A stretch of DNA of 20,244 nucleotides. It comes from a virus. The translations under genes were made by a program, and so were the position numbers. Location: the IMG/VR virus record IMGVR_UViG_3300049855_000236, positions 1-20,244 of that record; one strand, given 5' to 3'. Shown here piece by piece: positions 4,565 to 9,642 of this stretch. Every line of letters starts with the position of its first letter. Within the stretch, counting starts at the first letter, position 1. The notes below the pieces were generated by a model, which saw only the letters and a program-made list of their open reading frames with translations, was not told where the DNA came from and searched no databases.

Positions 4565-4816
4565 TCAGTCAGCGCAGTAGACGACACTTCGTTCGCCCCT
4601 GCCTTGTTTGGTCCGACTGCGGTAGTCGGTCCATACTCGCACACCGCGATCCGCCCTGTAAATCACCACTTCCTCCGCGCCGTCATCGCGCACGCGGCAG
4701 GAAATGAGGCACCCACGCCCGGACGGAAAGGTGACTTCCGCAATGCGTTCCTCCGGGAGCGAATGATCGTCAGCCGGCGGGCGCGGGTTCACCATCGGGC
4801 GCTGGCGCCGGCTCAT
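4565..4816 (-). CDS. Hypothetical protein
   Basis: An 83-residue protein of unknown function with beta-rich composition (EVTFPSGRGCLISCRVR...VVIYRADRGVRVWTDY). The ATG overlaps the stop of the upstream gene as ATGA, indicating coupling. A degenerate copy of the repeated motif (TGACGATCATT) lies inside at 4762-4772 and encodes ADDHS, close to where a second start could lie. No Cys cluster, membrane segment or signal peptide is visible. Confidence 0.65.
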   Translation of the reverse strand: MSRRQRPMVNPRPPADDHSLPEERIAEVTFPSGRGCLISCRVRDDGAEEVVIYRADRGVRVWTDYRSRTKQGRGERSVVYCAD

Positions 4817-5289
4817 ACCGGCTCGCCCGCGACATAGGGCCAGTCGGTGCTGCGCTGGCGCACGGCGCGCGTCGTGGGCTTCACGACCTGATAGGGCGTC
4901 ATGATGTCGTTCGGAGCCCGGTAGGCTTGGACCACGGCGCCGGACAGATAAAACTCCCCGGCGCGCGGCGGGCGCATCCCCTCATGCTGGTAGAAGCATT
5001 CGCCGATCCCCTCGAAGTAGGCGACTTGCTGCGCGCGGGAGACGATACGCTGCACCGTGGCGCGAGGATCAGCGCCCGCCTCGCCACGATAGGCGACGGG
5101 CGACACGTGGTTCGCCTTACTGTCGAGCATCCATTGCGCAATGGCTTCCACCATGCGCTCGGCCGCGTCTCCGCCGTCCGTGGGCAGGTTGAAGCGGCGC
5201 GCGACATCGAAGCAGCCTTGCGCCATCTTGTCGCACGCTTCGCGCTCGGCTCCCCGGAGCATTTCGTAGGCTCGATGAATGTTGCCCAT
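4813..5289 (-). CDS. Hypothetical phage protein
   Basis: A 158-residue protein. The N-terminal two thirds is helical (MGNIHRAYEMLRGAEREACD onward). The C-terminal part reads GEFYLSGAVVQAYRAPNDI followed by TPYQVVKPTTRA, a pattern I associate with small phage proteins of unknown function. The start sits in GGAAGTAGACGATCATGGGC: the ribosome-binding site and TAG stop belong to the upstream gene, and six bases separate stop and start. No catalytic motif is recognised. Confidence 0.75.
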   Translation of the reverse strand: MGNIHRAYEMLRGAEREACDKMAQGCFDVARRFNLPTDGGDAAERMVEAIAQWMLDSKANHVSPVAYRGEAGADPRATVQRIVSRAQQVAYFEGIGECFYQHEGMRPPRAGEFYLSGAVVQAYRAPNDIMTPYQVVKPTTRAVRQRSTDWPYVAGEPV

Positions 5290-5295
5290 GATCGT

Positions 5296-5466
5296 CTACT
5301 TCCTTTCCGTCAGTGACGCGATAAAACCAGGATCGGCAGCAATGCCACGCTCGCGCAGCACCGCGACAATTTCAGCCACGGGGCGGTGCGCCAGTTTGGC
5401 AACAACACGCCGTATCTCGGCTTCGATGCGCGCCGCGCTAGCGGCGTTGTTTTGCTTGCGTGCCAT
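5296..5466 (-). CDS. Small helical hypothetical protein
   Basis: A 56-residue basic protein beginning MARKQNNAASAARIEAEIRR, predicted mostly helical, ending SLTERK. AAGGA precedes the ATG, which lies in the junction motif TAGACGATCATG. Its own stop TAG is the TAG of the next copy of the motif, so it is packed between two copies. Function unknown; a small DNA- or protein-binding helical bundle is possible. Confidence 0.65.
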   Translation of the reverse strand: MARKQNNAASAARIEAEIRRVVAKLAHRPVAEIVAVLRERGIAADPGFIASLTERK

Positions 5467-5472
5467 GATCGT

Positions 5473-5784
5473 CTATCCTTCCCGGTTGAAGCCGAGCACG
5501 CGCGACACTCGCGCGTAGCTCGACGGAGTGATGTTGCGCGGCGGATGAATGCTGCGCGTCTCGACGGCTCCCGTCGTGTAATTCTGCCGCCCATCGACTT
5601 CGCTCCACCATCTGCCGCTATCCTCTTGCGGCGCGGCAAGGCGCATGGCTTCGCGCAGCGTCAAGCCGTCGCCCGCGTCATCCGTGCGCCACTCGCCCGG
5701 CTGCACATAGCCGCGACTTTCCGCGTCGCCATGCTCGGCGCTTTCGTGGGTGACAATCTCATAGGTCACTCGAAAATTGCCCAT
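5473..5784 (-). CDS. Conserved hypothetical phage protein
   Basis: A 103-residue protein. YEIVTHESAEHGDAESRGYV, then LTLREAMRL, RWWSEVDGRQNYTTG and HPPRNITPSSYARVSRVLG form a pattern familiar from small proteins in many phages of GC-rich hosts, all of unknown function. It starts in GGGGAGTAGACGATCATGGGC and ends NREG with its TAG forming the next motif copy. No signal peptide or membrane segment is present. The complete family-like length argues for an intact gene. Confidence 0.75.
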   Translation of the reverse strand: MGNFRVTYEIVTHESAEHGDAESRGYVQPGEWRTDDAGDGLTLREAMRLAAPQEDSGRWWSEVDGRQNYTTGAVETRSIHPPRNITPSSYARVSRVLGFNREG

Positions 5785-5790
5785 GATCGT

Positions 5791-5958
5791 CTACTCCCCA
5801 CGCTGGCGCAGAACGCGCCGGATCACCGCGTTGACGCGCGCCGTGCTCGGCAGGAACCGGCGCGCGGGGCACGTCCGATTGGAGTAGAGACACGCGCGAA
5901 GCCACGTGCTCGATTGCGCGGCCACGGCTCGGCGCAATTCATTCGTGGAAAGGCTCAT
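5791..5958 (-). CDS. Small basic hypothetical protein
   Basis: A 55-residue basic protein beginning MSLSTNELRRAVAAQSSTWL with two Cys residues in the middle. GGGGAGAGACGATC precedes the ATG at 5958. The stop is the TAG of the following junction motif. An in-frame ATG at 6075 lies within the upstream gene and is rejected for lack of a ribosome-binding site. Function unknown. Confidence 0.65.
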   Translation of the reverse strand: MSLSTNELRRAVAAQSSTWLRACLYSNRTCPARRFLPSTARVNAVIRRVLRQRGE

Positions 5959-5971
5959 GATCGTCTCTCCC

Positions 5972-6226
5972 CTAAATGCCGCAATAGAGCTTGGCGGCAC
6001 GCCGCGCGCCGCTTGCGCTGCGCCACATGCGAATATCCCCGCCCGTCGTATGGAGCCATCCATAGGCGGTTCCAATGACCGCGTAGCGTGTCTTGCGCGC
6101 CTTGCTGGCGCAGTCGCATTCGCCCGCGAATGTCAGATAATCGTGCTTGTCGCACAATTCGAGCTTGACCGGGCGAGGCTCCCCGGCGCGAATGTCGATT
6201 GCCCCGCGACTTGACATAATGTCCAT
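5972..6226 (-). CDS. Conserved hypothetical phage protein; two possible starts
   Basis: An 84-residue protein from ATG 6226. KLELCDKHDYLTFAGECDC followed by ARKTRYAVIGTAYGWLHTTG and MWRSASGARRAA forms a pattern I recognise in small phage proteins without known function; the C-x-C and further Cys could bind metal. Both ATG 6226 and the in-frame ATG 6319 sit in identical GGACAGACGATCATGG contexts. The longer form would add 31 residues encoded by a segment that contains a 10-bp inverted repeat (6260-6310), so the shorter form is preferred. The upstream copy may be a duplicated leader. Confidence 0.7.
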   Translation of the reverse strand: MDIMSSRGAIDIRAGEPRPVKLELCDKHDYLTFAGECDCASKARKTRYAVIGTAYGWLHTTGGDIRMWRSASGARRAAKLYCGI

Positions 6227-6259
6227 GATCGTCTGTCCAATCCGTTGTGTTTCGTGATC

Positions 6260-6310
6260 CTGCACAAAACGTCGCACATGCCGAATAGGAATGCAAGACA
6301 TTTTGTGCAG
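6260..6310. repeat. Inverted repeat, ACAAAA family
   Basis: CTGCACAAAA at 6260-6269 and TTTTGTGCAG at 6301-6310 are perfect reverse complements separated by 31 bases. The element lies between two copies of the GACGATCATG motif. It shares TGCAC-(A/G)-AAACGTCGC with 10408-10423 and the CAAAATG/CATTTTG core with dyads at 9221 and 9607. A protein-binding operator or leader structure is plausible. No T-run follows on either strand. Confidence 0.6.
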
Positions 6311-6342
6311 GTTGCCCATGATCGTCTGTCCGGCGCGTGGCG

Positions 6343-6630
6343 CTACCTTGCCCCGGATTGGACGGCGCGCGCCAGCGTGACCGAGCACGTCCGCGCGCCA
6401 TCCTCGCGGCAGGCTTCGCGCCATCCTAGGCGGTTCCCCCGCAACCCGCTGAACAAGCGCCGGGCGGTTTCTGCCACGTCCGGCGGGAGCACGTCCGGGC
6501 CACGCTGGCGCATCTCGCGCACGGCTCGATTGAAAGCCTCTTGACGTGTCCGGCCGGCTCCCGTGGCGTGCTCCCCGGTTCCCGTGCGGCAGATAGTCGC
6601 GCGCCAGATGGCGCGGCTTGCCATGCTCAT
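6343..6630 (-). CDS. Hypothetical protein, paralogue of its upstream neighbour
   Basis: A 95-residue basic protein. WRATICRTGTG, GAGRTRQEAFNRA and a C-terminal REDGARTCSVTLAR line up with WRVTIFRTGTG, SAGRTRSEAFARA and REDDMRTCSLRVQR of the next gene upstream, so the two are tandem duplicates. The N-terminal half resembles a small beta-beta-alpha phage domain of unknown function. GGGAGGG lies eight bases before the ATG and overlaps the upstream stop (GGGAGGGTTGACATCATG). A second ATG at 6624 is possible. Confidence 0.7.
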   Translation of the reverse strand: MSMASRAIWRATICRTGTGEHATGAGRTRQEAFNRAVREMRQRGPDVLPPDVAETARRLFSGLRGNRLGWREACREDGARTCSVTLARAVQSGAR

Positions 6631-6634
6631 GATG

Positions 6635-6955
6635 TCAACCCTCCCGGTTCAAGCGTTGCACGCGAAGGCTACACGTCCGCATGTCATCCTCCCGCGTGAC
6701 ATCCTCCCGGACGTGCGGCGCATTGCGCGCCACGGCGCGGAATAGGCTTTGCAGCGTGGGGAGGATGTCAGGTTGCGGCGTGCCCCGGAACGTGCTCCCG
6801 CCCGTGTAGAATGGCCCGGCTAGGGCACATGCACGCGCGAAGGCTTCGCTTCGTGTCCGGCCGGCGGACGTGAAGCCGCATCCCGTTCCCGTGCGAAAGA
6901 TAGTCACGCGCCACCTATCGGAAGCGCGCGCAATCCCGGTCAACCTACGGGGCAT
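6635..6955 (-). CDS. Hypothetical protein, paralogue of its downstream neighbour
   Basis: A 106-residue basic protein sharing the WR-x-TI-x-RTGTG ... AGRTR-x-EAF-x-RA core and the RTCS-containing C-terminus with the gene at 6343-6630; the middle (about residues 45-70) has diverged. GGGGAG precedes the ATG. It ends LNREG, and those codons also carry the GGGAGGG ribosome-binding site of the next gene, a junction cassette reused at 7240. The -1-frame extension of the upstream zinc-ribbon gene overlaps its first codons. Function unknown. Confidence 0.7.
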   Translation of the reverse strand: MPRRLTGIARASDRWRVTIFRTGTGCGFTSAGRTRSEAFARACALAGPFYTGGSTFRGTPQPDILPTLQSLFRAVARNAPHVREDVTREDDMRTCSLRVQRLNREG

Positions 6956-7067
6956 GTCGCGTGCTCCCCTTGCAGCGCCGCACGGTAACTAAGTCATGCC
7001 CCGTGCTATCGTGCCGCCCGTGCCACGTGGCGCCGTCCGGGCCACGGAACCGGAAAGAGATACCGCC
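6945..7067 (-). other. -1-frame C-terminal extension of the zinc-ribbon gene
   Basis: Read one base back from the zinc-ribbon frame, this stretch encodes GGISFRFRGPDGATWHGRHD then STGHDLVTVRRCKG and a TAG at 6945. FRGPDGATWHG and the later VRRCKG look like the C-terminus of the same family. Joining the frames near residue 50-56 would give about 95 residues. I do not see a canonical X-XXY-YYZ slippery heptamer at the join, so a real frameshift mutation or a base-calling error is as likely as programmed frameshifting. Confidence 0.55.
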
Positions 7068-7234
7068 GCCCGTTCCGCTTCCGCCGCGCACGGATAGCAG
7101 ATGCGCGCGCCGTCCGGCTTGACCGCGTAGCCGGTTCCGCCGCAATGGCCCGGCGGGTTGACCGGGAACGCAGCGCCGCACGTGCTGCAAGCCGTGCCGC
7201 CGTTGTCCGGCCGCATCTCTCGATTGCGCGCCAT
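6989..7234 (-). CDS. Zinc-ribbon protein, apparently interrupted by a -1 frame change
   Basis: The frame from ATG 7234 gives 81 residues. It begins MARNREMRPDNGGTACSTCG and contains C-S-T-C (16-19), a Cys at 31, GTGYAVKPDGARICYPC (34-49) and then AAEAER. This matches a widespread phage zinc-ribbon family (C-x-x-C ... GTGY ... CY-x-C). After about residue 55 the frame turns into low-complexity Ala/Gly/Thr sequence. The expected family C-terminus (G-P-D-G-x-x-W-H-G ... VR-R-C) is instead in the -1 frame at 7067-6945. GGGAGGG lies upstream of ATG 7234; an in-frame TTG at 7240 is less likely. Confidence 0.65.
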   Translation of the reverse strand: MARNREMRPDNGGTACSTCGAAFPVNPPGHCGGTGYAVKPDGARICYPCAAEAERAAVSLSGSVARTAPRGTGGTIARGMT

Positions 7235-7236
7235 GT

Positions 7237-7515
7237 TCAACCCTCCCGCTTCGTCGTGGGGAGCTTTGCCCCTTGGCGGGGATGGGCGGCACGAATGCGG
7301 CAGGCTTCCGCCGTGATCCTATCGCATTCGTCCAAGCGAAGGCGCAGCGTGAAGCGCGCGCCGTGCGCGTCAAGCACGACTGCCACGGTAGCCGAGCCGT
7401 CCGCTTCGCTTTCCGTCCAAACCATGGCGGAAGCCTCCCCGGAACCCGCGAGGGTTGACGGCGCGAGATGCTTGCCGCGCGTGGCGTGCCACGTCTGGCG
7501 CGTGAGGGTTGACAT
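7237..7515 (-). CDS. Hypothetical protein
   Basis: A 92-residue protein beginning MSTLTRQTWHATRGKHLAPS, with a beta-rich centre (ATVAVVLDAHGARFTLRLRLD) and a helical end with ECDRITAEACRIRAAH. AAAGGA lies ten bases before the ATG at 7515. A longer upstream frame is rejected because it crosses the 21-bp hairpin and another gene. Its final codons REG plus TGA contain the next gene's GGGAGGG ribosome-binding site. Function unknown. Confidence 0.7.
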   Translation of the reverse strand: MSTLTRQTWHATRGKHLAPSTLAGSGEASAMVWTESEADGSATVAVVLDAHGARFTLRLRLDECDRITAEACRIRAAHPRQGAKLPTTKREG

Positions 7516-7551
7516 AGTGTCGTGATCCTTTCCGGGAGTGTCGCGGGATTG

Positions 7552-7603
7552 CTGCCACTCCCCTAGCCTGCCACGTGCGGGCGGCAGGCTAGGGGAGTGG
7601 CAG
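7552..7603. repeat. Large perfect hairpin, 21-bp arms
   Basis: Arms at 7552-7572 and 7583-7603 are perfect reverse complements around a 10-base loop (ACGTGCGGGC). It lies in the 119-bp gap between the genes at 7635 and 7515. There is no T-run on the minus strand, so it is not a standard terminator. It could stabilise or process the mRNA, or attenuate reading between the two genes. Part of its left arm and loop (CCCTAGCCTGCCACGTGC) recurs exactly at 10710-10727. Confidence 0.9.
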
Positions 7604-7634
7604 GGGAGGCTTGCGCCATCCCCTGCCGCCGTGA

Positions 7635-8810
7635 TCAGGCTTCGCCCATTGCCACGGCTTCCGCGCCGTCCGGGATGGGGATGCCGGCATTCGTCGCGGC
7701 TTCCACCATGCTTGCCCATTCCAGCAAGTGGCAACCCACGCGGGCGGTTCCGTCCGCCGACACGTGCGAGAGATGGAAGGAACCCACGCGAAGGCTTCCC
7801 GTCCATTCGTGCCCCGTGCGGCGGACGTGCGCGCACATGCCGAGCAAGCGCCGGCCGGCGGCAAGGGGAACCTTTGCCCCGCGCGCGGTTTCCACGACAT
7901 CCCCCACGACGCGCACGACACCCCCGCCCGTGGCGGTTTGCGACACTTCCCACGGGAGATGCACGGGAACGCCACGCTTCCACGCCGCGAGCTTGTCCGC
8001 ATTCTCGGCACGCGCCAGCGTCAAGGCTTCCGCCCGCTTCGCTTCGCGTTCCGCTTCCACGGCGGCACGGCGCGCGGCATCCCGCGCAACCTTGGCACGA
8101 TACGCGGGAGTGTCGCGCTTCGCAGCGCGCGCGGCGTGGTGCGCGCGAAGCGCCACCATGTCCGCTTGCGCGTCCGGCATGTCCGCCGGAAGGGGCAGGT
8201 TGAAAACGGCGCAGTAGCGGCGCAATTCGTGAAGCGCGCGGCCGGGTTGCCCATAATCCGAATGGGAACCGGGTTCCGCCGGAAGCTCGGCGACCATCTC
8301 TTGCGCGCCGTTGACCCATCGCAGCGCGTTGACTTCCGCCCATCCCGGAAGCTCCCGCTTGCGCATGGCGGCAGTCATGCCGGCGCGATACTGCGCCAGA
8401 TAGTGCGCGACATTCCCGGCATGTTCCACGACGGCGCAGCGTGCGGCGTAATCCTCCCCGCTTTCGTCATTGCGCCAGTCGCGCGCCGGCTTGTCGCGAG
8501 GCTCGGCATACCGGCCGCGCATGTGCCCCGGCGGGAGCAAGAGATAGGGCACGTGGAACGTGGGATACTGCGACGTGTCGCGCGTGCTCGGCATGTGCTT
8601 GCCGGAAGTCGTGACACTGTAGGAAATGCACGTGATCAGCGCCACGCCGCTACCGTCCGGCGCGGACGTGATATGCGCGATGGGCGTTGAATAGGACGAA
8701 AGCACGCCGCCGGAAAACGAAAGGTTCCCGTTTGGCGTCCGGGCTTCGTCCTGCGTTTGTGCCGCCCATACGTGCAACACTTGCGAATTGTCCATAACCT
8801 TGCGGACCAT
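7635..8810 (-). CDS. Large conserved hypothetical phage protein with central helical region
   Basis: A 391-residue protein, the largest of the accessory group. The N-terminus (VLHVWAAQTQDEAR then NLSFSGGVLSSYSTPIAHI) matches a pattern common to large uncharacterised proteins of many phages of GC-rich hosts. Residues 120-150 and 190-280 are helical, with a long charged Ala/Arg/Glu segment (about 222-278) likely to form a coiled coil. A C-terminal beta-rich domain follows, with GVVRVVGDVVETARG (297-311). AAGGA lies nine bases before ATG 8810. Reading further upstream to 9047 would overlap another gene. No enzyme motif is visible. Confidence 0.8.
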   Translation of the reverse strand: MVRKVMDNSQVLHVWAAQTQDEARTPNGNLSFSGGVLSSYSTPIAHITSAPDGSGVALITCISYSVTTSGKHMPSTRDTSQYPTFHVPYLLLPPGHMRGRYAEPRDKPARDWRNDESGEDYAARCAVVEHAGNVAHYLAQYRAGMTAAMRKRELPGWAEVNALRWVNGAQEMVAELPAEPGSHSDYGQPGRALHELRRYCAVFNLPLPADMPDAQADMVALRAHHAARAAKRDTPAYRAKVARDAARRAAVEAEREAKRAEALTLARAENADKLAAWKRGVPVHLPWEVSQTATGGGVVRVVGDVVETARGAKVPLAAGRRLLGMCAHVRRTGHEWTGSLRVGSFHLSHVSADGTARVGCHLLEWASMVEAATNAGIPIPDGAEAVAMGEA

Positions 8811-8895
8811 GTGGCCTATTCCTTCAATCGAGATGCAAGCGGGATGCTGGCATTCGGGATGCACGGCGCCACGCGGGAGCCGTGCGGCCGGAATG

Positions 8896-9141
8896 TCAGA
8901 TATTCGCGCGGCGGTTCCAATGGGCGGCAAGGGTTGCCTCCCCTGCGTTGCGGTAGTGCTGCGCCGCGAGGATGCACGCGGCACGGAAGCCGGCGCGGTC
9001 ACGGCGCGACAAGGCGCGGCCGGCATCCTGCAAAGCATCCCGCGCAAGCTCCCGGCTTTCGTTCTGCGCCAGCGTCAAGCGATGCATGACGTGCATGTTG
9101 CGCGCTGCGATGGAACCGGCCGGAACGTGAGAATGGAACAT
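8896..9141 (-). CDS. Small helical hypothetical protein
   Basis: An 81-residue protein beginning MFHSHVPAGSIAARNMHVMH. The remainder is helical (RLTLAQNESRELARDALQDA then GRALSRRDRAGFRAACILAA), resembling a TPR-like helical pair. AGAAAGG lies before ATG 9141. An in-frame ATG at 9243 falls inside the promoter-like repeat and is rejected. A TTGACA promoter candidate lies about 50-75 bases upstream, so this may be the first gene of a sub-operon. Function unknown. Confidence 0.65.
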   Translation of the reverse strand: MFHSHVPAGSIAARNMHVMHRLTLAQNESRELARDALQDAGRALSRRDRAGFRAACILAAQHYRNAGEATLAAHWNRRANI

Positions 9142-9189
9142 GTCGGGAGCCTTTCTTGCCTTGCGCGCCGTGTCTGGCGCCGTGACCGC

Positions 9190-9252
9190 ATTAGGGGAGA
9201 AAGCGCGCGCCGTGTCAATCGACAAAATGCGCGCCTTGCACATTTTGTCAGG
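9190..9252 (-). promoter_or_regulatory. Promoter/operator cassette, copy 1
   Basis: The dyad GACAAAATG (9221-9229) / CATTTTGTC (9241-9249) sits directly upstream of TTGACA (9218 to 9213, minus strand), and a CCTAAT -10 candidate follows after 17 bases (9195-9190). The -35 is perfect to the sigma-70 consensus and the -10 matches four of six positions. The dyad overlaps the stop of the upstream gene. A dyad abutting the -35 box suggests regulated initiation. A second copy is at 9576-9642. Confidence 0.55.
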
Positions 9253-9388
9253 CTCCCCGGTAGAACGGCGCTTCGTGCCACGTGGGGAGCTTCCGCGCGG
9301 CCGGCTTCCGGCGGCAGATGCACCACGACACTTGCAAGCGCGCCACGCGAAGGAACCGCAACCCGCCGACTTTGCGAAACGTGATCAT
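9248..9388 (-). CDS. Small hypothetical protein
   Basis: A 46-residue basic protein beginning MITFRKVGGLRFLRVARLQV and containing SWCICRRK, a pattern seen in very short phage proteins (a V-G-R-x-x-x-S-x-C-x-C strand pair). Its ATG follows the upstream stop by three bases. The ribosome-binding site is weak (GGGAT). Its stop TGA is part of the copy 1 dyad. Function unknown. Confidence 0.55.
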   Translation of the reverse strand: MITFRKVGGLRFLRVARLQVSWCICRRKPAARKLPTWHEAPFYRGA

Positions 9389-9391
9389 GTC

Positions 9392-9526
9392 TCAATATCC
9401 CGTAAGGTTGACGTTGTAGCCTCCCGCGCACGGGAGCACGTGATACGCAATCCCCTGCCGCGTAAGCTCGGCGCAGAATTGCGCCATTTCCACGATGTTT
9501 TCAGTCCGGAAGAAAGCGGTTCCCAT
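9392..9526 (-). CDS. Small hypothetical protein
   Basis: A 44-residue protein, MGTAFFRTENIVEMAQFCAE followed by LTRQGIAYHVLPCAGGYNVN and LTGY. The composition looks like a small helix-beta-hairpin unit (helix ENIVEMAQFCAELTRQ then YHVL...YNVN). GAAAGGCTAGG precedes ATG 9526. The leader holds an 8-bp hairpin and promoter cassette copy 2. Function unknown. Confidence 0.6.
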   Translation of the reverse strand: MGTAFFRTENIVEMAQFCAELTRQGIAYHVLPCAGGYNVNLTGY

Positions 9527-9545
9527 GGTCCTAGCCTTTCGCGTC

Positions 9546-9567
9546 CGGGAGGCTCGATTGCCTCCCG
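9546..9567 (-). other. Leader hairpin before the gene at 9526
   Basis: CGGGAGGC (9546-9553) and GCCTCCCG (9560-9567) form a perfect 8-bp stem with a 6-base loop in the 5' leader, between promoter cassette copy 2 and the start codon. No T-run follows, so a leader structure is more likely than a terminator. Confidence 0.6.
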
Positions 9568-9575
9568 TGGAACCC

Positions 9576-9642
9576 TCTTAAGGGGAAAGCCGGCCGCGTG
9601 TCAATCGACAAAATGCACGGCTTGCACATTTTGTCAGGTTGC
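9576..9642 (-). promoter_or_regulatory. Promoter/operator cassette, copy 2
   Basis: GACAAAATG (9607-9615) and CATTTTGTC (9627-9635) flank 11 bases, and TTGACA follows (9604 to 9599, minus strand), nearly identical to copy 1 over about 45 bases. The -10 at a 17-base spacer (TTAAGA) is poor, so promoter activity is less certain than for copy 1. The dyad overlaps the stop codon of the gene ending at 9634. Confidence 0.45.

Follow-up and report, generated by a model that had tools for sequence, protein, structure and literature searches.

A viral zinc-ribbon gene split between two reading frames, probably by an internal deletion

Layout of the Locus

When the two recognizable ends of a small gene lie in different reading frames, is the gene recoded, broken, or misread? 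The question arises on the minus strand of a 20,244-base metagenomic virus fragment, the whole of which we call the window. A preliminary description of this DNA placed an N-terminal zinc ribbon in one frame and a family-like C-terminus in the -1 frame, and named three possible causes: programmed -1 frameshifting, a disabled gene, or an indel error. The plus strand of the window carries tailed-phage head genes, and the minus strand a helicase and a row of small genes, of which the split gene is one. Its features, together with the evidence for each, are as follows.

7064..7234, minus strand: family-like N-terminal part, with the zinc ribbon (CxxC ... CGGTGY ... CYPC) and the predicted first part of the next helix; profile match (37.1 bits, positions 6-51) and codon-usage score
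6989..7234, minus strand: open frame likely translated today, an 81-aa zinc-ribbon stub whose terminal residues (about 24) are out of family, ending at TAG 6991-6989; GGAGGG upstream of the ATG
6945..7064, minus strand: out-of-frame (-1) 3' remnant, FRFRGPDGATWHG...VRRCKG, ending at TAG 6947-6945; profile match (16.9 bits, positions 94-124) and frame comparison
7050..7070, minus strand: probable deletion scar, with profile positions ~52-93 (the central block, including an invariant W-x-G) absent in every frame; 38 nt vs. 52-74 codons in 36 relatives
6635..6955, minus strand: next gene, with its ribosome-binding-like sequence AAGGGGAG inside the remnant; sequence and open reading frames

The 81-codon frame starts at ATG 7234, immediately downstream of the good ribosome-binding-like sequence GGAGGG, and contains the motifs CSTC, CGGTGY, and CYPC. 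The motif FRGPDGATWHG...VRRCKG is in the -1 frame relative to the zinc ribbon, where the sequence from about position 7064 is GISFRFRGPDGATWHGRHDSTGHDLVTVRRCKG. The coordinates and the split were accurately described at the outset, as was the 11-nt overlap between the stop of the remnant (TAG 6947-6945) and the start of the next gene (ATG 6955). A 142-aa open reading frame with a TTG start (7373-6945) was judged to be a long chance frame across the upstream gene. Downstream, the two adjoining small genes in 6343-6955 (minus strand) are tandem paralogues with 41% identity over 95 residues; both contain WRxTIxRTGTG...AGRTRxEAFxRA, and repeats that match at the DNA level are spaced 307 nt apart.

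Relatives of the Split Gene

Neither the window halves nor their fusion, used as queries, returned anything usable from phages or viral contigs, and the terminase and one small neighbor gene retrieved no viral relatives. The family was instead defined from DNA-pattern scans that do not rely on the two window halves together. A scan for GPDGxxW[HY]G gave 11 viral proteins, each with an N-terminal zinc ribbon; the GPDG..W pattern was taken from the C-terminal part in the window, and these first 11 members share the motif by selection. An alignment scan and then a zinc-ribbon pattern scan enlarged the family; for members from the latter, the C-terminal motif was not selected for. The resulting profile (nr2, from alignment A2) comprises 36 non-redundant members, 35 from viral contigs and one from a bacterial metagenome-assembled genome (MAG), and includes no window sequence. 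A 37th homologue, Mbo2_099 of the isolated Rhodococcus phage Mbo2 (URG17469.1), was found with a query composed of family motifs, which served only as a lead. A weak match to VroomVroom gp64 (E 0.6) was not taken as a family member.

The family is widespread in viruses (L058, L095, L101, L107, and 32 other loci in alignment A2), with recurring motifs NWPG and GPDGxxWHG. Members are about 110-170 aa long, mostly 120-150 aa. Among genome contigs the alignment scan found no member, and the pattern scan found the one intact MAG member (L111:5071-5493, minus strand); the 116-kb contig around it is assigned to a Proteobacteria MAG and may carry a prophage or be a binned phage contig. Two related viruses, L002 and L003, have a matching helicase (77% and 63% identical) and neighboring genes in common with the window. 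Family members are not detectable in either record, and the small-gene region of the window (4816 to 9634) is poorly conserved. Our searches found no virus record near-identical to the window, and the collections may omit its near relatives.

Searched in six frames with the 36-member profile, the whole window yields only two matches above threshold: the N-terminal part (37.1 bits, E 7e-11) and, in the -1 frame, the C-terminal part (16.9 bits, E 1.3e-4). They are adjacent, on the same strand, and in the correct order; across 100 first-order resampled windows, no score exceeded 11.2 bits. The C-terminus had been called family-like, and it does match the profile of the same family as the zinc ribbon. 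Codon usage traces the same change of frame, with the N-terminal frame preferred to about 7075 and the C-terminal frame from about 7060 to 7040. Over 25 codons, the C-terminal frame scores -2.2, which places it between true genes (5th percentile 4.0) and wrong frames (95th percentile -6.9 or lower).

The window copy thus retains the zinc ribbon with its invariant second CxxC and the C-terminal W-H-G ... R-C-K/R motif, the latter in the -1 frame; it lacks the single open reading frame of its relatives. All 36 carry both ends in one open frame, and no homologue was seen to end naturally in the first frame, an outcome that had been named as one that would overturn the split. Mbo2_099 is likewise intact in one frame, with a central VTTWTGG block.

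The Missing Central Block

Aligning the relatives located the join, as had been suggested, and also revealed what is absent. The family match in the first frame ends at about 7064, and the apparent scar falls within 7050..7070. Profile positions 6-51 and 94-124 are matched, leaving about 42 central positions without a match in any frame of the window. The 36 relatives have 52-74 residues between the last aligned column of the N-terminal part and the W of WHG; in the window this interval is 38 nt long, so that 39-61 residues, the middle third of the coding sequence, are missing. The W-x-G of this block (W81 and G83 in L058) is invariant in all 36 relatives and absent from the window in every frame. 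The expectation of a sensible full-length protein from the joined frames does not hold: the product is about 95 aa and is not full-length, because the central block is missing.

An AlphaFold model of the relative L058 (36 sequences, pLDDT 90.9) contains a helix at 42-56 and strands at 58-67, 73-79, 86-97, 101-109, 115-121, and 127-132. The missing part corresponds approximately to L058 residues 53-104, a stretch that in the model takes in the last part of the helix, three of the six barrel strands, and some of another. By this prediction, about half the beta-barrel is lost.

From the model and the scans, the intact family combines a zinc ribbon with a predicted six-stranded barrel and is without a database model. 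The members scanned have no Pfam or NCBIfam match, matches to PHROGs are weak and scattered, and fold searches gave no significant match to a solved structure. A profile search of solved structures gave only weak zinc-ribbon matches, to primase zinc domains (E 0.07). If the ribbon is any guide, the family might bind nucleic acid.

Deletion, Artifact, or Recoding

Most likely the split reflects nothing more than a broken gene of the usual kind or a gap in the local assembly, and not programmed frameshifting. A real out-of-frame internal deletion in a phage gene is the best explanation and, in our judgment, probably the correct one; of the three causes originally proposed, the disabled gene is the best supported. 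A single-base error alone does not explain the loss of 39-61 residues. Such an error, or a mutation, could account for the frame change if near relatives of the window have a naturally short, single-frame form from which this copy differs by one base at the join. The tight scar with well-kept flanks fits this, as does the possibility that such relatives are absent from searchable collections, but none of the 36 relatives, gathered by three scans, is short, and every one of them has the central W-x-G; we regard this as quite improbable. More serious, though still unlikely, is a local assembly error in which the gene is intact in the phage and the assembler lost the central block on joining reads. 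In favor of such an error are the metagenomic origin of the window, the frequency of short repeats in this GC-rich region, and the good conservation of both ends of the gene, neither of which contains a stop. Against this, the direct repeats touching 7050-7099 are only short (13-23 nt) and imperfect, and the helicase, portal, terminase, and capsid genes are all uninterrupted: the helicase aligns with that of L002 over 456/458 residues, and the portal and terminase match their PHROGs nearly end to end. Because these long genes are uninterrupted, the contig is not generally indel-ridden or poorly assembled. Neither part of the split gene has gained a stop codon so far, which fits a recent event or an artifact at least as well as long-standing decay.

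It is extremely improbable that programmed -1 ribosomal frameshifting fuses the two parts and so yields a functional product of about 95 aa. The direction of the shift (-1) is right, both frames are open across the join, and the C-terminal frame outscores the wrong frames of known genes. However, the zero frame contains no slippery heptamer (X_XXY_YYZ) from 7234 to 6989, and RNA structure downstream of the join is no better than that of shuffled sequences (z -1.19, 0.18, and -0.08, for pseudoknot-free folds). The product would also lack about half the predicted barrel and the central block found in all 36 relatives, and neither these relatives nor Mbo2_099 include a split homologue. In a survey of prokaryote reading-frame transitions, 4010 clusters were pseudogenes vs. 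146 that were recoding, and unclustered transitions were mostly put down to sequencing errors, indels, or gene overlaps (PMC3711429). It is very improbable that the short two-frame gene is functional in some other way, either with the 81-aa stub now acting as a stand-alone protein or with the 3' part added by rare -1 frameshifting that needs no canonical slippery site.

If the deletion is real, the ancestor would have been a typical family member with an N-terminal zinc ribbon, a helix, a six-stranded beta-barrel, and a terminal GPDGxxWHG...RCKR motif. Loss of more than 100 bp from its interior, by a net length that is not a multiple of three, would have taken away the last part of the helix together with about half the barrel and shifted the 3' end into the -1 frame, an event in the phage genome and not in the assembly. 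Today, ribosomes probably initiate at 7234 and terminate at 6989, so that the product would be an 81-aa zinc-ribbon stub with a foreign tail; the 3' remnant is probably no longer translated in its old frame. The survival of the remnant may reflect a short elapsed time as well as the ribosome-binding site of the next gene, which lies at the end of the remnant.

Comparison with Known Systems

A gene split between frames into two plausible halves need not indicate recoding; here, relatives expose a missing middle that is invisible from one sequence alone. A useful by-product is a viral zinc-ribbon/six-stranded-barrel family without a Pfam or NCBIfam match.

Programmed -1 frameshift genes (dnaX, IS transposases, phage tail assembly chaperones) have two overlapping open frames in a -1 relation, as in the window, but the window lacks the slippery heptamer, the stimulatory structure, the conserved split, and the full-length product. 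With the unnamed viral zinc-ribbon/beta-barrel family it shares the N-terminal zinc ribbon and the C-terminal GPDGxxWHG...R-C-K, in the same order and on the same strand; in contrast to that family, the window copy lacks the central W-x-G block and its ends are in different frames. Pseudogenes formed by out-of-frame internal deletion in phages and bacteria differ in that neither part of the window gene has so far gained stops and its deletion, read from assembled sequence, is a probable one. They are otherwise alike in having two conserved ends, a lost middle, a change of frame, and no split relatives, and intact one-frame relatives that contain the missing block are available for the window copy in 36 of 36 cases and in Mbo2_099.
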